A DNA stretch of 64,000 nt, taken from contig NZ_BCNW01000001.1 of assembly GCF_001571385.1 (NCBI RefSeq), positions 1,054,001 to 1,118,000 of the forward strand, given 5' to 3'. Each line of letters begins with the position of its first letter. Within the stretch, counting starts at the first letter, position 1. Both the position numbers and the translations under genes were made by a program. Of the stretch, positions 10,658 to 20,923 are shown piece after piece. The notes beneath the pieces were generated by a model, which did not search any database, had not been told where the DNA came from, and saw only the letters and a list, made by a program, of their open reading frames with translations. Source of the DNA: Methanofollis ethanolicus. Lineage in GTDB: Archaea > Halobacteriota > Methanomicrobia > Methanomicrobiales > Methanofollaceae.

Positions 10658-13600
10658 TTAGATGCTGATGGCGGCCAGAGTGCCGCCGGTCCGCATGAAG
10701 AGCCAGTATCCCTCTCCGGGGTTGAGATCTCTCTCGTCTGTGTGCGCTCCGCTGCCACCGTTGATGATCGAGGATTCGTAGGCCTGGTCCCTGGCATCAA
10801 GGCCGATGAGGATTGCCCATGCCTCTTTCACCGATACGAGTGCGTCCTTTGCGGGTGCCGGGCTGATGTCAGAGAAGCCGATGGCGTTCCATCCCGGTAC
10901 GAGGTTCTTTGTCGGGGCGGTTACGGGTTTGAGGGAGTCGAAAGTGAGCACGACGGTTGCAGTGCTGTTAGAGTAGATCCAGATACCATCGAGAGGTCTG
11001 ATCTGCGTGCTGGTCTTGAGGGCTTCCCAGCCGTTCGTACCGTCATAGCCGAAGATCGAGTGACCGGCACAGTCGACGCCGCTGAAGACGGTGACGGTGT
11101 CGTTGCCGGGCGCGAGGGTCCTCGGGGTGGAGACGAAGTTCCAGCCCTTGTGGAGGGTGAGGGCCATGCCCTCATCGCTTCCCGGGAGTCCGGTGAGCCT
11201 GATCGCGTCGATGCTGCCGAGCTGCTTCTCGGCGGGGACAGAAGGCCCGACGAGTTTGAGAGGCCAGTCCCCTTCTTCGAGTGGTCGGCCGCCAATCTCG
11301 TTGGCGAGGATGTAGCCGTTGTTGCGCTTCACGTCGGCACTCTGGAGCTCGACGTTTCTGTCGTCGGCTGTGCCTGCGATGCCGTCTGGGCCGTAGTCGA
11401 TGAGGACGATGGTATAGCCGGCGTCGGCGAGGTCGTCGCGGTATGCCCCGGCCCCGTGCGACTGGCAGTCGTCGACCCAGCCGCAGAGGAGCCAGAGGGG
11501 CATGCCCGACCAGGTCTTCCCGCCGTCGGTCCACTCGGCCCGGTGGATGCCGCCGCTGCACTCGACGCCGTGCTCGTAGTAGGTCCGGCTCATCTCTTCA
11601 GCGATAGCACCATTGAGGGTGAGAGTCCAGTCCTCTCTGGGTGCAGGCAGGATCTCGATAGTGTCGACCTTTGCAACTGAGATCCCGGCCACTGAGGGTT
11701 TCTTCTCGTAGTAGTGCCAGTAGCGTGCCGGGAGGCACTCGTGCATGTCCCAGTTGCCGAAGATCCCGTCCGGGGCCATGAAGAAGAGACGGGGGCCTTC
11801 GCGGTATGCCGGGACTTCACCCTGATAGTCGGTCCACCAGGCGAGGATGGCCTCCCCCTGCCTGGTCGCAGGAGTGTAGACTGAAGAGTACGGGAGGGCT
11901 CCGGTGTATCCGTCTGTGGCGGTGAACGTGATCTCGTTGCCTTCTTCCGCACCGCCGACGAGGCTGCAGAGGTCGCGCACGGAGGTGCCTTTCACGACTT
12001 CGTTGATCTTGCCCGGGTTGGCGTTGACTGTCTCTTCGGCATCCCAGAAGTCGTAGGGTTTGCCCGGGTGGGTCTCGTTCCACGCGTCACTGAAGACCGG
12101 GCCCTGGAAGTGGAGTTCGGTGCCGTTCTCTCCGCCGTAGACAGGGAGGTTCTTCTTCATCCACCGCACGGTGACGGTGGTTTCATCGGCGATGGTCCTC
12201 CCATCTTCTGCATACTTGACGATCCTGATCTTCGGAAGATCGGCGAGGGCGAGGACGGTGACGCTCGCGGTGCCCTGCACCCCCTCGCTCTCTGCGGTGA
12301 GGATCGTGGTGCCGCCGGCGAGGGCCTTGAAGTATCCGGTGGCGTTCACGCTTCCGACGGTGGTGTTGCTGCTCGTCCAGGTGAAGACGAGGTCTTCGAT
12401 CGCCTCGCCGGTGTCGTCATACCCTGCGGCCGAGAACTGGAAGATCTCTTTCTCTTCAAGTTCGATGTCGGCCGGGGTGACGGTGACGGTGGTGGGTGCA
12501 GGTCCTGTGATCTCGCCGTCCTTCCACTCGCCCATCATCGGGTAATCGTCCTTGTAGGCGCCAAAGGACATCGGTGTGTCGCCGATGCCGTTTTTGTCGG
12601 CGTCGATGCCGGTGTACCCGCTGTAGTGGTTCCCGACGTAGCCCGTGTACTCGCCGCCGCGGTAGGTGTAGGTCACCTCTTCGGGGGAGTGGTAGGTGTT
12701 GCCGGTCAGGATCTCAACAGGACCGAGGAAGGCGTTGGCCCAGACGATGTTGTCTTTCGGTGTGTCTTTGATGCAGATCTCTTTATCGATGTTTTTCTCG
12801 CAGGTGTTGTTGAAGACGAGGTTGCCGGAGACGGTGTCCCTGAGGCTGAGGCCGCGCTTGGTGTTCTCGTGGCAGGAGTTCTCTTCGACGGTGTTGCCGG
12901 TGGCGTCGCCGCCGAGGTGGATGCCGTTGTAGCAACCGGCGCAGTCGTTCTTCCTGACGATGCAGTTGTCGAAGCCGACGATCTCAATGCCTGCGACGTG
13001 CTCGTCGGTCGGGCCGCGGACGGAGAAGCCTTCAATGGTCACGCCGTCGGCGTCGACGTCGAAAACCGGTTTGTCGGAGGTCGCGGCCGTGACGGTCACG
13101 GCGCCGGCGCCGTTTTCAGTGCTGATGACGAGATGTTTGTTCACCAGCACGTTCTCGGTGTAGGCGCCGTCTCTGACGACGATAGTGTCGCCACCATTCG
13201 AGGCTGCGACTGCATCAGAGATGCTGGTGTAGATGCCTTCGCCGCCGTCGTCGTCGACGTACCGCGTCTGCGGTTCGGGCGGCGGTGCGTAGGCGTCATG
13301 CGCCGACATTAACGGTGCATAATCGGTGCCCAGGCCGTTGGGGAGGGCGTACGGGGTGTCGATGACGCCGTCGTTGTTGGTGTCGTCGCCGGTGTAGTCG
13401 GACCAGAAGTTGCCGAGGTAGCCGGTGTGAGTGGCGCTGTTGTAGGTGTAGGTGATGGGGGTGGAGTTCCAGATCTGGGCTGGTGATGTGGTTGAAATCA
13501 CATCTGCGGCTTTGTCGATGAAGTCATTGAGATAGACTCTGTTGTCGCCGCCGGACTTGTAAAATTCAAGCCCTGCTGTGGAAGAGGAGCTGAATGTATT

Positions 13601-14215
13601 ATTGACGATGGTGTTGTTTGAAGAAGTTGGACGTGAGATGGATAATCCGACTCCTTTATTCTTTATGAATAGATTATCTGAGATTGTACAACTATTTGCA
13701 TAATTAATGGTCATTGCAGAATATTTACCTGTGGTATTTTTGACGACGTTGTGCGAGAATATGGTGTTATTAGCACCAATATTGATTCCGCTAGGGGCTG
13801 TAAGTCCATCAAAGACACAATGTGTAATTACCGAGTCGGAACAGGGTCCAATATTATAATCAATAAAAATCCCAGATGTACTGTTGGTCACCAATACGCC
13901 CTCAATCCGCGTTCCGGTTGCGTCTGCTGAGGAATGCCCGAGTCCAAAACCAATCAATTCACTCCCTCTGCAGTCGACAGTCACCAGATCGGCGCCCTCG
14001 CCAATGATAGATAGGTGAGGTTTCTGTACTTGAAATTCTGAGTAGGTGCCGTTGTAAAGGAAGATCGTGTCTCCTGGCTGAGTATCTACGGCCCCAGTAA
14101 TACTTGTGTAATCATTAATGTCGTCGCCGCTATGGAGGTACCATGTCGTCGCCGCTGTCGGTGTTATGAGGAGAGCAAGCAGAATAAGGTAGAAAATTCC
14201 AATCGATTTTTTCAT
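10658..14215 (-). CDS. Giant secreted multidomain protein: two NosD-type beta-helices, BIG2, WDMHE domain, C-terminal GWNFVS module
   Basis: 1,185 residues. Signal peptide (about 1-24, ITPTAATTW); two right-handed beta-helix blocks of the NosD/pectate-lyase type (about 25-290 and 310-560), each ending in GNxWSDYTG/GNHYSGYTG; a BIG2-like Ig domain (about 570-660); and the domain shared with its two neighbours (about 665-850; GNWDMHECLP). Then comes a stretch with ADVKRNNGYILANEIGG...WPLKLVGP (about 850-1020), recalling the fold of molybdopterin-oxidoreductase (sulfite-oxidase-like) domains. The shared C-terminal module covers about 1025-1185. The ATG at 14215 is chosen because GGTGAT lies just upstream. 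Probably a cell-surface carbohydrate-binding or structural protein. Confidence 0.88.
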   Translation of the reverse strand: MKKSIGIFYLILLALLITPTAATTWYLHSGDDINDYTSITGAVDTQPGDTIFLYNGTYSEFQVQKPHLSIIGEGADLVTVDCRGSELIGFGLGHSSADATGTRIEGVLVTNSTSGIFIDYNIGPCSDSVITHCVFDGLTAPSGINIGANNTIFSHNVVKNTTGKYSAMTINYANSCTISDNLFIKNKGVGLSISRPTSSNNTIVNNTFSSSSTAGLEFYKSGGDNRVYLNDFIDKAADVISTTSPAQIWNSTPITYTYNSATHTGYLGNFWSDYTGDDTNNDGVIDTPYALPNGLGTDYAPLMSAHDAYAPPPEPQTRYVDDDGGEGIYTSISDAVAASNGGDTIVVRDGAYTENVLVNKHLVISTENGAGAVTVTAATSDKPVFDVDADGVTIEGFSVRGPTDEHVAGIEIVGFDNCIVRKNDCAGCYNGIHLGGDATGNTVEENSCHENTKRGLSLRDTVSGNLVFNNTCEKNIDKEICIKDTPKDNIVWANAFLGPVEILTGNTYHSPEEVTYTYRGGEYTGYVGNHYSGYTGIDADKNGIGDTPMSFGAYKDDYPMMGEWKDGEITGPAPTTVTVTPADIELEEKEIFQFSAAGYDDTGEAIEDLVFTWTSSNTTVGSVNATGYFKALAGGTTILTAESEGVQGTASVTVLALADLPKIRIVKYAEDGRTIADETTVTVRWMKKNLPVYGGENGTELHFQGPVFSDAWNETHPGKPYDFWDAEETVNANPGKINEVVKGTSVRDLCSLVGGAEEGNEITFTATDGYTGALPYSSVYTPATRQGEAILAWWTDYQGEVPAYREGPRLFFMAPDGIFGNWDMHECLPARYWHYYEKKPSVAGISVAKVDTIEILPAPREDWTLTLNGAIAEEMSRTYYEHGVECSGGIHRAEWTDGGKTWSGMPLWLLCGWVDDCQSHGAGAYRDDLADAGYTIVLIDYGPDGIAGTADDRNVELQSADVKRNNGYILANEIGGRPLEEGDWPLKLVGPSVPAEKQLGSIDAIRLTGLPGSDEGMALTLHKGWNFVSTPRTLAPGNDTVTVFSGVDCAGHSIFGYDGTNGWEALKTSTQIRPLDGIWIYSNSTATVVLTFDSLKPVTAPTKNLVPGWNAIGFSDISPAPAKDALVSVKEAWAILIGLDARDQAYESSIINGGSGAHTDERDLNPGEGYWLFMRTGGTLAAISI

Positions 14216-14244
14216 AATAATCACCATAGAAAAGAAAAAAAGGG

Positions 14245-15468
14245 TTAGTTGGTGTGGTGATGGGTCACCACGAGCTTTACGTAGTCGGTCGCAAGAATTG
14301 ATACGTCTCTGTCGACAATACCCTTCTGCTTCACGAGCACGGTGACGTCACCGTTAATGATGTAGTCGCTGATGCTTGAGGTGATGTCGCCCGTGAGCGA
14401 GATTTCGGTGCCGCTGGTGCTCTCTTGCAGGAGTTCGTAGGTGCTGCCGTCCCAGATATAGAGTTCAGCACCGTTCGTCCCACCAGGGTGTGTGCCGGTA
14501 CCGTTCCACGTGACGGCGAGTTTCTCGATGTTGGCAGCGTCCTCGGTGACGTTGAAGACGAAGCGCTGGGCGGCGTACTCGCCATCGTCCACACTGAGGG
14601 TATACTCGGAGGTGCCATCGTCAACGGCGATCTTCGAGGTATCGACGGTGGTGCCGCTCGGGTCGTTCAGGCCCGGGGAGGCGCCGACGCCGCCCTTGTA
14701 CGCATACTCGACGGTGTCGCCGCCGGTGGCGAAGTCATAGCGGTGCGGGGGGTAGATGTCGATGTTGGTGACCTGCTTCACCGAGAGGCCCTTTGCAGAG
14801 GGGTACGCTTTGTAGTTGTCATTCTTGTCGTACCAGTACTTCCAGTACCAGGACGGCAGAGACTCGTGCATGTCCCAGTTGGTGAAATTGTTGTCGGTCG
14901 CATCGTAGAAGTAGAGACGCATGCCGTCGCTCCAGGTCGGAACATCGCCATAGACGGAGTCCCACCAGGTCAGCACCAGTTCGCCGAGTTCTGAGGGCGG
15001 GTTGTTGACGTGGGTGGCGTTGAACCACGTGGTGTAGGTCTTGGTGCCAACGCTCGTGATCGCGATCTCGTCGCCGGCGCTCATGCTGCCAACCTCGCTG
15101 ACAATGTCGCGGATCAAGGTGCCGTTGTGGCCGCCGTAACTGACGAGGTTGACTCCCACCTCGTCCTCGTCCCAGATGTTGTAGTCGCTCTCGTTAAAAC
15201 CTGCGGCGATCCACTCGTCCAGAAACACCGGGCCCTGCATGTAGATGTCGCCGTTGCTTACGACATCGTCGTACTGGCTCCTAAGATACGTATAGGTAAG
15301 GTTCTCCGACTGGTCGATCGCGGAGTAGTTGTTGTCGCAGTACTTGGCCACGATGACGTTTGTCGTTCCTGCTGCCGCTGCCGGCATGACCAGCACCGCG
15401 AGGGCGATGCACAGGCAGAGAACTGCCATTGGCACTTTTATTCGTGTAATCATACTTCTAAGGGTCAT
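14245..15468 (-). CDS. Secreted WDMHE-domain protein, smallest of three paralogues
   Basis: 407 residues. Signal peptide (1-34, ending MPAAAA), the shared domain (about 35-245; QGPVFLDEW, LVLTWWDSVYG, NWDMHESLPSWYWKYW), then a beta-sandwich-like C-terminal region (about 260-407) rich in Thr/Ser/Asp that ends HHHTN without a membrane helix. I know no biochemical function. It is first in an operon with the 1,185- and 226-residue proteins (gaps of 29 and 15 bases). The start at 15468 has AGGAAAGG six bases upstream. ACTTATAG near 15519-15526 is a likely TATA box, and a TGTCGTT/AACGACA hairpin (15482-15497) lies in the leader. Confidence 0.85.
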   Translation of the reverse strand: MTLRSMITRIKVPMAVLCLCIALAVLVMPAAAAGTTNVIVAKYCDNNYSAIDQSENLTYTYLRSQYDDVVSNGDIYMQGPVFLDEWIAAGFNESDYNIWDEDEVGVNLVSYGGHNGTLIRDIVSEVGSMSAGDEIAITSVGTKTYTTWFNATHVNNPPSELGELVLTWWDSVYGDVPTWSDGMRLYFYDATDNNFTNWDMHESLPSWYWKYWYDKNDNYKAYPSAKGLSVKQVTNIDIYPPHRYDFATGGDTVEYAYKGGVGASPGLNDPSGTTVDTSKIAVDDGTSEYTLSVDDGEYAAQRFVFNVTEDAANIEKLAVTWNGTGTHPGGTNGAELYIWDGSTYELLQESTSGTEISLTGDITSSISDYIINGDVTVLVKQKGIVDRDVSILATDYVKLVVTHHHTN

Positions 15469-15616
15469 TTTTTTCCTTTCCTGTCGTTTTAACGACAATG
15501 AATACTCGATCAAGACCACTATAAGTCTCTTTTGATGAAAATGTAAAAAATATTAAGCAAACTATGTTGATGTCATTGACAGATATGCACGATTTTTGCT
15601 GGGGAAATCCCGGAAA

Positions 15617-15638
15617 ATATCGTATATATACGCGATAT
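15617..15638. promoter_or_regulatory. AT-rich palindrome, possible operator or extra promoter
   Basis: CGTATATATACG (15621-15632) is a perfect 12-base palindrome nested in ATATCG...CGATAT arms (15617-15622 and 15633-15638). It lies 150 bases upstream of the 407-residue protein start, beyond that gene's likely TATA box. It may bind a dimeric regulator or TBP in either orientation. Confidence 0.3.
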
Positions 15639-15983
15639 CTCTCTGTTATCTCTACATTGGGTTTAAATTTCTCTATTTGTGGGATCAAAGTGGTCCATTT
15701 CCACGTTTTGGCTCCTATTATAGGAAAAAATGAGAATATAATCGAATCTGTATTCTGCGCACACTATCCTGTGCCGAGGTCCCCGCGAAGGTGCTGTTGC
15801 CCTTCATATGGGGCCAGTAGCCCCGGCCGGGGAAAGTAGTGCCCGGTGTCCGTGAACCCGGCCGCTTTTCAGGTCTTCTCCGGCGGAAGAGAGGAGTATA
15901 TTTTTCGAAATATTGGAGAAACCGATCGAGCCCTGCATATTTCGTGCTCAAAATATTTTGTGATAAGATACGCGAAATGTTTT

Positions 15984-16001
15984 GGGGATTAAAAAATCCC
16001 C
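15984..16001 (-). terminator. Hairpin/oligo-U terminator of the 1,519-residue protein gene
   Basis: Arms GGGGATT/AATCCCC around four bases, starting 12 bases after the stop codon at 16013. The minus-strand RNA carries six U within the stem-loop. In archaea the U tract matters more than the hairpin, so this is a plausible but not certain terminator. Confidence 0.4.
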
Positions 16002-16012
16002 GCCAGACCTGT

Positions 16013-19000
16013 TCATACCCCTATCGCCGCAAAATTCCCCTTCTCGTTCATGAAGATCCAGTAGCCCTCCTTCGGCCCCATGTAAGACACCAGGTTGCTC
16101 CCGGCGGTCACGGCCGGCCTGTACTCCTGTCTGATCCTGTCGAACCCGACAAGAGAGGACCATGCCCCGTCCACCGACTGCAACGTCTCCTCCACCGGTA
16201 CGGGGACGGTGTCCGAGAACCCGATCGCGTTCCATCCCGGTGTGAGGTGCTTCATCGGCGGCACCTGTCGCAGGTCGGGGTTGTACGTCAACCCGACGGC
16301 GGTGCTCTCATTTGCATAGATCCAGATCCCGTCCAGCACCTCGAGCCGGTCATCCGACTTGAGCACCCGCCAGCCGTCAGGCTGGGCGTACCCGAAGATC
16401 GAGTGACCCGCACAGTCCACCGCCTCGAAGACCGCCACCGTATCTGCGCCGGGCGCCAGCCGTTTCGGCACCGAGACGAAGTTCCAGCCGGCGAGCAGGG
16501 TGAGAGTATCGTAATCGTCGCCGCCCGCACCCACGACGACGACGCGCGTGAAGATGTTGTTCTCCTCATCTGCTTCCTCAACGGCGCCGTCGGGGTCGGC
16601 GATGACGGAGAGTTCGTAGACCCCTTCGGCCGCCGGTTTCCAGACGAAGGAGACATCCGCATGGTCCCCGGCCGCAAGCCCGGCCACCGTTTCGGTCGCG
16701 GCCTTCGCGCCGTCCAGTGCAAACGCGACGACAAATGCGTCGGCGTCCTTTCCTCCGCTGTTCTCGACCCGTGCCGTGACCGTCGCATTGACGCCCGGAT
16801 CGAGATCAGGCACCTCGATCCCGGTGACGAGGATGTCGGGCTCTCCGCTCCGGTCGATCACCACCCGGTCGAAGACCTCGCCGGGCGGGCGGATGCCGAG
16901 GACTTCCTTGTTGTCCTCGGAGACGTCTGCCACCGGTACGAACTCCATCGTCGCCGTTTCGTTCGCCGGGTCCACCGTCACCCGCGTATAGCCCAGCGTA
17001 AACTCCAGGCTGTTCTGGTACCCGATCTCTTTCTCCTCGGTGAGGGTGTACAGCGGGCCTCCGCCGGTCGCCGCGACGACGTACTGCGTGCCGTTCACCA
17101 GGTACCGCTGGTATGAATGGACATGCCCGTTGAAGACGACATCGACATCGTTCGCCTCGAATGTCGGCCCCCACAGAGTACGGAAGTTCTTCCATCCGCC
17201 CGGATGACTGGTTCCCGAACTGTACGGCGGGTGGTGGAAGGCGACGAACGTCCAGGACGCGGTGCTCTCCGCGAGGTCCGATGCCAGCCATGCCGTCTCT
17301 TCGTTCATCCTCGGCCCCACATCGTCGTTGGAGTCGAGCATGGCGACATGCACGTCGCCGCAGTCGAAGGAATACCACGAGGGAGCGCCGAATGCCGCCA
17401 TGTAACCCTCTGCATCGTCCAGGTAGTCGTGGTTCCCGCGTGTCGGGTACAGCGTCGTGTTCGCATACAGCGCCCGCCCGGATGCGAAGAACCGGTCCCA
17501 CTCTTCAAGGTTGTCCGGGTCGCCGACAGTGTCGCCGACATGGACCACGAAGGCGGCGTCCTGCTCCTCCGCGGCGATCCGGTCCGCGACGAGTTTGTGC
17601 CGCTCCAGCTGCGTGAAGTCGGATATCTGCTCCTGCGTATCGCCGTAGACGATGAAGGTGCACGGCCCGCTCTCCGGGAAGGTTCTGAAGGTCAAGTCCG
17701 CGGAGACGTTCCTGCCCGCGTGGACGCGGTAATGATAGCGCGTATCGGGCGCAAGGTCGGTGAGACTCACGTGCCTGAGCACCTCCTCGCCGGCGGCGGA
17801 GACATTGCGGTCGTACTTCCCGTGCTCGGTGAAGTACGCTTCAGCGGCGTACTCCACCATCCCGGCCGCCGGGATCTCAGTCTTCCAGTTGATCGTCGTC
17901 CCGTTCGTCGTCGTCCCGGTCAGGTACGGCCCCCACTGTACCTCCGGCACCGGCGGGAGGACCTCGTACTGGTCGACTGGCTCCGTCAGGGGATAATTAT
18001 CACGATCCGTCTCCGAGACGATGTAGGGGATGTCGCCGATACCGTCGCCGTTGGCATCGGTGCCGTTGTAGTCATCCCAGTAGTTACCCAGGTGTCCGGT
18101 GTACGGCGTGCTATTGTAAAGATATTCGATCGGCAGGGAGGCATTGACTGTTGTGGCCGATTTAGAACTCCTCCAATTGACTGTATTTCCAATAAAGGAG
18201 TTCATATAAATAATTTCCACACCCTGACATTTTAGGGTACTAAGACCGCCTCCGTTCTTTGTGAGGGTGTTGTTGGTGATGATGTCGCCGGATGTCTCGG
18301 CTAAGTAAATTGCATCTCCTCCGTTCTGTGTGAATAGATTGTCGGCAATGAGGGAGTTATGCGACTTTTCCATAAATATTCCGTTATACCCACAGGAGAT
18401 GTTGTTCGCTGAGATGGTTGCATTTCTGACATAACTGAAATAAATCTTCATCGGGTTTTTGCTCTTAGAGAATTCGTTCTCTCTAATTGTGACATTCCAG
18501 CACCCATTGCAATTGAGATCACAATACCCTTTTTTAGGCTGTCCTTCGTTTCCGAAACTATTTCTCACAAATGTCGTATTATTTGAATTTTTCAGAGATA
18601 CCCCGAAGGCCTCATGCTCTGAAAAAGAAACATTGTTTATGATGGTGCCATCTGAAGAGATGGACCACAGCCCATATTTTGAGTCGCCCCTCACGCTGCT
18701 GTCGGAGATGATGTTCTGATGCGAGTTCGTGATCTTGATCTCGGACTCTCCGTTGGAAGCCATCACGCATCTCCGGATTGTATTCTCATCCGCTTCATTC
18801 AGATCTATTCCAGAAAGCGAGTTCTCGCTCCCGGTACATCCTGCAATGACATTGCCTTTTGAAGCATTGAGGTAGATTCCGTATTGGGCGTTCCTCTCCC
18901 CAAAAGAGTCGGTGAGGGTGATGTTTTCTGTGCCCCTCAAGATAATTCCATGAAAATTGGACGAAGCAGTGACATCTGCAACCCGGCAATCCCGCACCCC

Positions 19001-20572
19001 GTCCAGGAGAAGCCCGGCCCCCTCGTTCATCGCCCCGGTCAGCGCAAACCCTTCGATGGTGACGTTATCGGCAGTCACGGCGATCACGTCGTCCTGGGTA
19101 TTCGCCGCCTTCACCGTCGTGGCTGCGGTGCCGTGCTCTGAGACGAGGGTCAGGCGTTTGCCGACATCGATGTTCTCGGTGTACGTCCCGTCCCTGACAA
19201 GGACGGTGTCCCCGGGATTGGCAGAGAGCACCGCTTCCTGAATGGTGGTGTAATCCCCGCTCCCGCCGATATCGACGACGATCGTTTTCGCCGGAGGAGG
19301 TGCCAGGGCAACCGTCACGGTCGTTGATCCCGAGACCCCGCCTGTCGTCGCCGTCACCGTCGCCGTCCCCTCTGCCAGCGCCGTGAAGAGCCCGGTGGCC
19401 GGGTCCACCGTCCCGACCGTCTCGTTGTCGCACGACCAGGAGACCGCGACGCCCTCCATCGGTCCGCCGTTCTGGTCCCTGGGCACGGCCGAAAACTGCT
19501 TCGTCTTCCCGACCACCGCCGTTGCATCCGCAGGATAGACCGAGATGGTGGTCAGCACCGGCCGCTCGCTCACTCTGATATATCCCTTCTTTGTCCAGGA
19601 CACCGTACCCTCCGCGGCCGTCACCGTGAGGGTGACATTATATGTGCCAGGTTTTTTGTACTCGTGCACCGGCCGCTCATCCGGCGAGACGGCGGTGTCG
19701 TCGCCGAAGTCCCACTGCCATCCGGTCGGTGTCGTCGCCGAGGTCTCGGGCGTGAAGGCCACGGTGAGGGGAGCATATCCTGAGGTCTGGTTCGCGGCGA
19801 AGGTGACCCTGAAGAGGGGCGCTGGGTCCTGCGAATGGATGATGACCCGGTCGATGTACTTTACCGACAGCCCGGTGGTCGCCGGGTACTCATCAACCTT
19901 GCCGGAGATGTAATAGTGCCAGTATTTCTCGTCCATGCACTCGTGCATGTCCCAGTTGCCGAAGACATGCCACCCCCACGGGTTGGTGGAGTCGTCGGCA
20001 AAGAAGATCAGGCGCATTCCTTCAAAATAGGTTGGGACATGTCCAAGGTCGGGCCGCCACCAAGTGATGACCATCGGCCCCTGCCTGGGATCGGGGTCGT
20101 AGACGTTCCGGTACCCGAAATTTTTGTACATTCCGTCTTCGGCCTTGATCGTGACTGTGTCGCCCGGGTTCATACCGCCGACCAGTTCGCAGAGATCTCT
20201 GACGTCGGTTCCCTTGACGGCGTGATAGTCCTTTTCAGGAATATTTCCACTCTCTGCTCTGTCCCATCTTAGGTCCTCGTCTTTCTCCCCGAGTTCGGGC
20301 CCCTGGTGATAGTAATGCGTCACCCCATCTCCCTGTACCGGGAGATTTTCCTCCATCCAGTGATAGTCGACTGTTTCCTGTGCAATCAACGTCTCGTCTA
20401 CGGCTAGTTTGGAAACCGTCACCTCTGTCGTTGGGGTTCCCGCCGAGACCGGCGCCACCAGGAGGAGGCCCAGGAGAACAAGGATAAGGAGGGGGGTGAT
20501 GCTTGCTTTTATCCTCGATTCAGATATTGATTCTTTGAATAATCTTGATTTGCTATTTTTTTCACTTTTCAT
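16013..20572 (-). CDS. Giant secreted protein with purple-acid-phosphatase-like metallophosphoesterase domain
   Basis: 1,519 residues. Signal peptide (about 24-44); WDMHE domain (about 50-255); PKD (255-340); BIG2 (340-420); NosD-type beta-helix (about 425-890); FN3-like plus metallophosphoesterase (about 900-1190); CARDB (about 1245-1345); C-terminal GWNFVS module (1350-1519). The phosphoesterase metal ligands are visible as YGDTQEQ (about 974), HVGDTVGD (about 1010), GNHDY (about 1044), FHHPPY and GHVHSY (about 1149), the order found in purple acid phosphatases, and nothing obvious is missing. It should act outside the cell, perhaps in phosphate scavenging or on surface polymers. TTTATAA (minus strand, 20621-20628) is the likely TATA box. 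Confidence 0.9.
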   Translation of the reverse strand: MKSEKNSKSRLFKESISESRIKASITPLLILVLLGLLLVAPVSAGTPTTEVTVSKLAVDETLIAQETVDYHWMEENLPVQGDGVTHYYHQGPELGEKDEDLRWDRAESGNIPEKDYHAVKGTDVRDLCELVGGMNPGDTVTIKAEDGMYKNFGYRNVYDPDPRQGPMVITWWRPDLGHVPTYFEGMRLIFFADDSTNPWGWHVFGNWDMHECMDEKYWHYYISGKVDEYPATTGLSVKYIDRVIIHSQDPAPLFRVTFAANQTSGYAPLTVAFTPETSATTPTGWQWDFGDDTAVSPDERPVHEYKKPGTYNVTLTVTAAEGTVSWTKKGYIRVSERPVLTTISVYPADATAVVGKTKQFSAVPRDQNGGPMEGVAVSWSCDNETVGTVDPATGLFTALAEGTATVTATTGGVSGSTTVTVALAPPPAKTIVVDIGGSGDYTTIQEAVLSANPGDTVLVRDGTYTENIDVGKRLTLVSEHGTAATTVKAANTQDDVIAVTADNVTIEGFALTGAMNEGAGLLLDGVRDCRVADVTASSNFHGIILRGTENITLTDSFGERNAQYGIYLNASKGNVIAGCTGSENSLSGIDLNEADENTIRRCVMASNGESEIKITNSHQNIISDSSVRGDSKYGLWSISSDGTIINNVSFSEHEAFGVSLKNSNNTTFVRNSFGNEGQPKKGYCDLNCNGCWNVTIRENEFSKSKNPMKIYFSYVRNATISANNISCGYNGIFMEKSHNSLIADNLFTQNGGDAIYLAETSGDIITNNTLTKNGGGLSTLKCQGVEIIYMNSFIGNTVNWRSSKSATTVNASLPIEYLYNSTPYTGHLGNYWDDYNGTDANGDGIGDIPYIVSETDRDNYPLTEPVDQYEVLPPVPEVQWGPYLTGTTTNGTTINWKTEIPAAGMVEYAAEAYFTEHGKYDRNVSAAGEEVLRHVSLTDLAPDTRYHYRVHAGRNVSADLTFRTFPESGPCTFIVYGDTQEQISDFTQLERHKLVADRIAAEEQDAAFVVHVGDTVGDPDNLEEWDRFFASGRALYANTTLYPTRGNHDYLDDAEGYMAAFGAPSWYSFDCGDVHVAMLDSNDDVGPRMNEETAWLASDLAESTASWTFVAFHHPPYSSGTSHPGGWKNFRTLWGPTFEANDVDVVFNGHVHSYQRYLVNGTQYVVAATGGGPLYTLTEEKEIGYQNSLEFTLGYTRVTVDPANETATMEFVPVADVSEDNKEVLGIRPPGEVFDRVVIDRSGEPDILVTGIEVPDLDPGVNATVTARVENSGGKDADAFVVAFALDGAKAATETVAGLAAGDHADVSFVWKPAAEGVYELSVIADPDGAVEEADEENNIFTRVVVVGAGGDDYDTLTLLAGWNFVSVPKRLAPGADTVAVFEAVDCAGHSIFGYAQPDGWRVLKSDDRLEVLDGIWIYANESTAVGLTYNPDLRQVPPMKHLTPGWNAIGFSDTVPVPVEETLQSVDGAWSSLVGFDRIRQEYRPAVTAGSNLVSYMGPKEGYWIFMNEKGNFAAIGV

Positions 20573-20923
20573 GCGATCTCATCCGGTAATATGTATATCG
20601 ATATCACCTCTCTGCCGGTATTATAAATTGGTTTTCATTATTCTGTTAATTATGTTAAACTGCCTTTGTTAATGTCTCGGGCATGAAGGCGGGCTGAAAA
20701 ACCGTGAAAAACGTGTGCGTTGCTTGAAAGTGGCGTGATGTCGGGATGAGTGCCTGAAAAAGGATTTTTCGCCCGCTCCTCTCCCCTCCGTCCGGGCATT
20801 TCTGGGGGATGGGGCCCTATCCGCCGATATGGGAGCGGATCCGGGATGCGCCCGTGATCAGAGAGAAAATGGGGTCGTATCTCGCTGTTTATGGGCTGGA
20901 TGGGGCAAAAAAGAGGAAAAAGA
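20573..20923. other. Intergenic region upstream of the giant phosphoesterase gene
   Basis: About 350 bases. The part next to 20572 is AT-rich and contains the TATA box TTTATAA of the minus-strand surface gene (20621-20628). The part next to leuS holds A-tracts (about 20909-20914 and beyond), which on the minus strand are T tracts suited to terminate leuS. No gene seen. Confidence 0.5.

Follow-up and report, generated by a model that had tools for sequence, protein, structure and literature searches.

Methanogens and ANME archaea rely on tungsten and molybdenum enzymes for CO2 and formate chemistry; to our knowledge, the gathering of these scarce metals outside the membrane by such archaea has barely been described. 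Four known systems come closest to the locus reported here. The first is the WtpABC tungstate transporter, and the second is the Oxidored_molyb family (PF00174), which includes the sulfite-oxidase (SUOX) enzymes SorA, SorT and YedY/MsrP. SUOX enzymes must be loaded with their cofactor ahead of Tat export. The third is PruR (PDB 7kom, 7kos and 7rkb), a secreted SUOX-fold protein that lacks the molybdenum-ligand cysteine, with Trp in its place, and binds pterins. PruR is a single small protein and is tied to a c-di-GMP regulator (PMC13259868). The fourth is the YkoEDC-type ECF vitamin transporter.

Here, we compare with these systems an unnamed domain, for which we use the working name D, that is common to three neighboring proteins of 1,189, 407 and 1,519 residues encoded in the window, the 64,000-nucleotide stretch of DNA that was analyzed. 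The features are as follows, in order of position:

10658-14227, minus strand: gene of the 1,189-residue protein (1,185 residues if counted from the second ATG)
10661-11140, minus strand: unnamed C-terminal domain of about 150 residues, 1,189-residue protein (found by blastp against the 1,519-residue protein)
11171-11623, minus strand: SUOX-fold repeat directly after D, residues 869-1019 of the 1,189-residue protein (profile match iE 4.8e-53)
11639-12238, minus strand: D copy 1, residues 664-863 of the 1,189-residue protein, P0001 (profile match iE 2.6e-77)
14245-15468, minus strand: gene of the 407-residue protein
14740-15369, minus strand: D copy 2, residues 34-243 of the 407-residue protein, P0002 (profile match iE 3.8e-57)
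16013-20572, minus strand: gene of the 1,519-residue protein
16016-16495, minus strand: unnamed C-terminal domain of about 150 residues, 1,519-residue protein (blastp against the 1,189-residue protein, 43% identity, E 1e-46)
16544-16840, minus strand: CARDB domain, residues 1245-1343 of the 1,519-residue protein (PF07705 2.7e-22)
17111-17923, minus strand: purple-acid-phosphatase N-terminal domain and calcineurin-like phosphoesterase, residues 884-1154 of the 1,519-residue protein (PF16656 3.4e-8, PF00149 3.1e-15)
18020-19243, minus strand: NosD-type parallel beta-helix, residues 444-851 of the 1,519-residue protein (PF05048 6.4e-43; TIGR04247 8.9e-36)
19310-19774, minus strand: PKD and Big_2 domains, residues 267-421 of the 1,519-residue protein (PF18911 1.6e-13, PF02368 8.1e-11)
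19826-20434, minus strand: D copy 3, residues 47-249 of the 1,519-residue protein, P0003 (profile match iE 6e-97; the copy modeled with AF2)
20645-20660, minus strand: conserved promoter element of the triplet, GTTTAACATAATTAAC (one exact copy in the genome; relatives have it, exact or with one mismatch, ahead of their orthologous triplets)
20654-20673, no strand assigned: operator-like palindrome that departs from GTTAA-N10-TTAAC at one position and lies 82 bp ahead of where the 1,519-residue protein's gene starts

A sequence-only reading of this DNA had claimed that the three proteins share a domain of about 200 residues for which it knew no name. Pairwise blastp bears out the sharing (E-values 2.4e-38 for the 1,189- and 1,519-residue proteins, 3.3e-30 for the 1,189- and 407-residue proteins, and 4.4e-21 for the 407- and 1,519-residue proteins), and the domain is indeed nameless: scans of the window copies against Pfam-A and NCBIfam found no model for D, none of 61 diverse members scanned singly against Pfam gave a credible match (0/61), and PF00174 matched 0/61 at E 0.1. 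Pfam Antimicrobial10 matched two members, and the Shiga-toxin-B model matched the 407-residue protein (E 0.12); both were rejected as chance. A literature search found no earlier description of D or its gene cluster. The three-copy alignment shows no variation in QGP, WW, G-x-VP, G-x-RL-x-F or NWDMHE; the motifs quoted in the earlier reading are present, except that the D-x-W it placed after QGP is missing from the 1,519-residue copy. Pfam agrees with the partner domains it listed (NosD-type beta-helix, PKD, Big_2 and phosphoesterase) and adds CARDB and the purple-acid-phosphatase N-terminal domain. The description of D as a mobile module, joined to varied partners, is supported. The 1,189- and 1,519-residue proteins also have a second domain in common at their C-termini (GWNFVS...GHSIFGY...GWNAIGFSD...GEGYWLFM), and a Pfam scan of the 1,189-residue protein's copy gave no match.

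D is present in 21 of the 41 related genomes searched, mostly in multiple copies, with seven copies in the genome that contains the window, and in 37 of 296 sampled genomes of the phylum, most with several copies. Named contigs with D belong to Methanomicrobiales, Methanosarcinales, Argoarchaeum, Methanothrix (as Methanosaeta), Methanocellales, and ANME-1 (Methanophagales); D also occurs on a few MAGs labeled Bacillota or Dehalococcoidia. Across 130 sequences the conserved positions are Q46-G47-P48, W59, E63, G77, D82, D102 and G121, together with W127, G141, R143, D164, P186 and G190. The N-terminus of D proteins is signal-like, and an RR-type motif lies near it in only 11 of 225 D-protein ORFs.

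The sequence-only reading had suggested structure prediction and fold comparison; these show that D is no new fold and place it in the SUOX fold, a kinship that the reading had missed for the shared domain itself. The AlphaFold model of D copy 3, built with 61 sequences, has pLDDT 94.7 and pTM 0.90, and in a Foldseek search of the PDB it matched the SUOX fold only, with PruR, SorA (sulfite dehydrogenase) and YedY filling ranks 1-10. The best match is PruR (E 7.7e-4); the scores of these matches are moderate (TM about 0.4-0.5 by query length). The D profile had no significant match among the sequences of solved structures, and the fold assignment therefore rests on profile–profile and structure comparison. 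The profile evidence runs through lipoproteins of about 195 residues that adjoin D genes and match PF00174 (3.8e-12): an HMM of the three window copies matches them (E 1e-2 to 2e-6), hhalign of the D and lipoprotein profiles gives 97.5% (E 8.6e-12), and the lipoprotein profile matches plant sulfite oxidase (E 6.9e-7). With PF00174 members such as SorA, SorT and YedY/MsrP, D has in common the fold, the KGT/GG/DG core, the G-x-R-L site and the C-terminal VK-x-V-x-x-I strand; unlike those enzymes, it lacks the metal-ligand Cys before the W-x-G/K-G motif, is missed by the Pfam model, and in most cases has no RR motif for its export. Because the 130 sequences show no conserved Cys N-terminal of G77, the metal ligand of the enzymes has been lost from D, and the lipoprotein is likewise without it. 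By sequence and model, then, D forms a branch of the SUOX fold that is divergent and has no ligand cysteine; with that Cys absent and no match to the Pfam model, we do not place D in the sulfite-oxidase enzyme family.

A sulfite-oxidase fold had also been hinted at elsewhere in the 1,189-residue protein (under its 1,185-residue count), and it proves to be real, at residues 869-1019. The AF2 model of this SUOX repeat (pLDDT 87.4) has SUOX-fold molybdoenzymes as its top 38 Foldseek matches (sulfite oxidase, SorT, SorA and YedY). We counted 166 such repeats; of the 58 fetched proteins that carry them, 55 contain D as well. Direct hhalign of D against the repeats is weak (21%), so the relation between the two runs via the lipoprotein family, and the repeat is a related but separate domain. 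In the repeats a Cys (137/159) is near-invariant, as is a His close by (144/163); both stand before W-x-G-x-PLW, a placement that in sequence corresponds to the layout of the ligand loop in SUOX enzymes. Trp replaces Cys in three members, and PruR likewise has Trp at this place (PMC13259868). In repeats on the Methanosarcinales contigs L063, L064, L069 and L076, the Cys-His pair reads CxxCH, a c-type haem motif.

These repeats bear on the reading in which the proteins act outside the cell as molybdo- or tungsto-enzymes of the sulfite-oxidase type, carrying out redox chemistry at the surface, with the Wtp genes and the operator link described below merely supplying their metal. Cys and His retained at the metal-ligand place, the structural resemblance to SUOX enzymes, and the haem-like copies all speak for such a role, but D and the lipoprotein are without Cys, the RR-type motif is rare (see above) though Tat export would be expected, and no electron-transfer partner is seen in the window cluster. 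We consider this reading unlikely.

The gene neighborhood of D points in another direction. About 40 loci in Methanomicrobiales, Methanosarcinales and ANME-1 have a conserved order in which one or more D proteins are followed by the SUOX lipoprotein and WtpA, and in many of them by WtpB and WtpC. In the genome that contains the window, the main D operon (L021) forms another cluster, some 60 kb away from the window triplet. The triplet is a second gene set with D, SUOX repeat and phosphoesterase modules but without a transporter; no wtp gene adjoins it. This separation, and the occurrence of D in large beta-helix/PKD/Big proteins, would fit D being a structural or adhesive surface-protein module that has metal genes as incidental neighbors. 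Yet in different families and orders single-domain D proteins of 270-300 residues stand directly before the SUOX lipoprotein and WtpA, the co-occurrence and operator sharing reported below far exceed chance, and the positions conserved in D (QGP, W, E and D) resemble a site, all of which make an incidental association highly improbable.

The WtpA of these clusters belongs to the described family, and the copy in the window's own genome scores above the TIGR03730 cut-off (1.8e-101, 338.9 bits against 242.75); the WtpB and WtpC of the D cluster are named by NCBIfam at scores below their cut-offs. Unlike the WtpABC system as described, the D-linked WtpA forms a separate subfamily (EGHGSIQ, VADxSLIP, SNPMLDACGYR) that stands alongside an ordinary WtpA in most such genomes. 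Compared with the solved WtpA pocket, the Asp of NxDPCGYR is kept, with variation at the LEAG Glu position and in other pocket motifs; the ligand of the D-linked WtpA could therefore differ from that of the structurally solved WtpA. The EGHGSIQ signature occurs in 31 of the 296 phylum genomes, D is present in 30 of these 31, and in all 30 the signature and a D gene are 0.9-1.6 kb apart. The thirty-first match (G301) was rejected because the protein is not a WtpA. Seven D-containing genomes of the 296 are without the signature. The co-occurrence across the 296 genomes is strong (Fisher p 3e-33, a statistic that ignores shared ancestry). Among the 41 relatives, the D cluster includes a WtpA in all D-containing genomes but one, which is 88% complete. 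The D-linked WtpA at G030:C18:11190-12009 is split into two frames, perhaps by a frameshift or a sequencing error. The D cluster extends the WtpABC kind of system by a surface layer.

A calcineurin-type phosphoesterase homologous to that of the 1,519-residue protein recurs in 38 of 67 D loci, either free or, in several lineages, fused to D. The annotated D neighbors recurrently include WtpA, WtpB and WtpC, the SUOX lipoprotein and this phosphoesterase, and none is a GGDEF/EAL-type (DcpA-type) protein. This neighborhood has to be weighed against the closest structural likeness. Since PruR is both the best structural match of D and a Cys-less, secreted SUOX-fold pterin binder (PMC13259868), D and the lipoprotein might be PruR-like pterin sensors that steer adhesion or envelope behavior instead of metal uptake. 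The constant partner of D, however, is a binding protein of the tungstate type, accompanied by WtpBC, the shared operator precedes metal transporters, and the GGDEF/EAL-type partner is missing from the annotated neighbors, so that we judge sensing to be very improbable. By analogy, D would work most like PruR, from which it differs in its length of about 200 residues, an extra segment with NWDMHE, its frequent placement within giant proteins and its tie to WtpA; because the gene neighborhood differs, we do not place D in the PruR family.

An operator-like palindrome further connects D with metal transport. GTTAA-N10-TTAAC was noticed first in these promoters and counted genome-wide afterwards; the 2.7-Mb genome has three exact copies, two upstream of the main D operon and one upstream of the ordinary wtpA. 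The 41 genomes contain 60 exact sites, of which 14 are no more than 2 kb away from a D, WtpA or MOT1 gene, where 0.45 would be expected; this is an undercount that misses sites before long genes with a C-terminal D, such as the two in the window's own genome. Exact sites stand ahead of a giant protein at the head of the D operon in two relatives and ahead of a MOT1 molybdate transporter in G037, and a one-mismatch site precedes MOT1 in G018. Within the window, only the site at 20654-20673 has one mismatch or fewer (0.15 expected), and it is kept in G009. One-mismatch sites genome-wide number 18 against 19 for a reversed-pattern control, and the membership of the triplet in the same regulon is for this reason only suggestive. 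A search of this genome for the ModE repressor found none. GTTTAACATAWTTRAC was rejected as a genome-wide operator; it has a single exact copy in the genome and is therefore a triplet-specific feature. A near-palindrome, CAGTTTAACATAATTAACAG, at 20643-20662 upstream of the triplet is kept in relatives though the flanking sequence differs. Sites also occur near the start of methanogenesis marker 11-like genes (exact, upstream, in L118:2461-3162; one mismatch in L109:7878-8990).

Gene neighborhood, co-occurrence and the shared operator point to molybdenum/tungsten acquisition. The surface-assembly role offered in the sequence-only reading is not borne out, as these same lines favor acquisition instead; its alternative of ligand binding is compatible with the SUOX fold and the metal-gene context, as a putative function. 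We therefore propose, as the probable role of D, that it is the ligand-capture module of a surface system that acquires tungsten or molybdenum in methanogenic and related archaea. The giant exported proteins would display D, the Cys-bearing SUOX repeats and the phosphoesterase on beta-helix/PKD/Ig stalks beyond the envelope, and in the main operon the SUOX lipoprotein and the dedicated WtpA-type protein would receive the metal and hand it over to WtpBC. We infer both the binding of a metal species by D and the membership of the triplet in the shared regulon. The bound form may be the pterin cofactor (Moco/Wco) instead of the bare oxyanion, because PruR, with the same fold, binds pterins without Cys; the phosphoesterase, which would then act on the cofactor, fits the processing of a phosphorylated cofactor, and it adds to this reading, as do the YkoEDC-like ECF genes described below. 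Binding of the bare oxyanion is equally compatible with the WtpA link. If the proposal is correct, a conserved and probably co-regulated surface operon would give major methane-cycling lineages a new layer for acquiring metal (or cofactor), and proteins currently annotated as NosD-like or hypothetical would gain a function; the proposal predicts Mo/W-responsive expression and binding by the recombinant domains.

More tentatively, and with considerable doubt, acquisition may take the form of surface salvage, in which the SUOX domains of the giant proteins catch pterin-bound Mo/W shed by other cells, the phosphoesterase opens the phosphate or nucleotide part, the oxyanion passes to WtpA and WtpBC, and the pterin passes to an ECF transporter. 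Sets of ECF genes resembling YkoEDC lie near D clusters in several lineages (L109:7878-12536, L120:7104-11369, L121:1-3497, L082, L083 and L085) and, like the YkoEDC-type vitamin transporter, have a PF09819 S component. In two Bacillota MAGs (L083 and L085), this S component is fused to a PF00174 SUOX domain, a fusion that we know from no described ECF system. In three genomes of the genus, the ECF operon has operator-like sites at its head or close to it.
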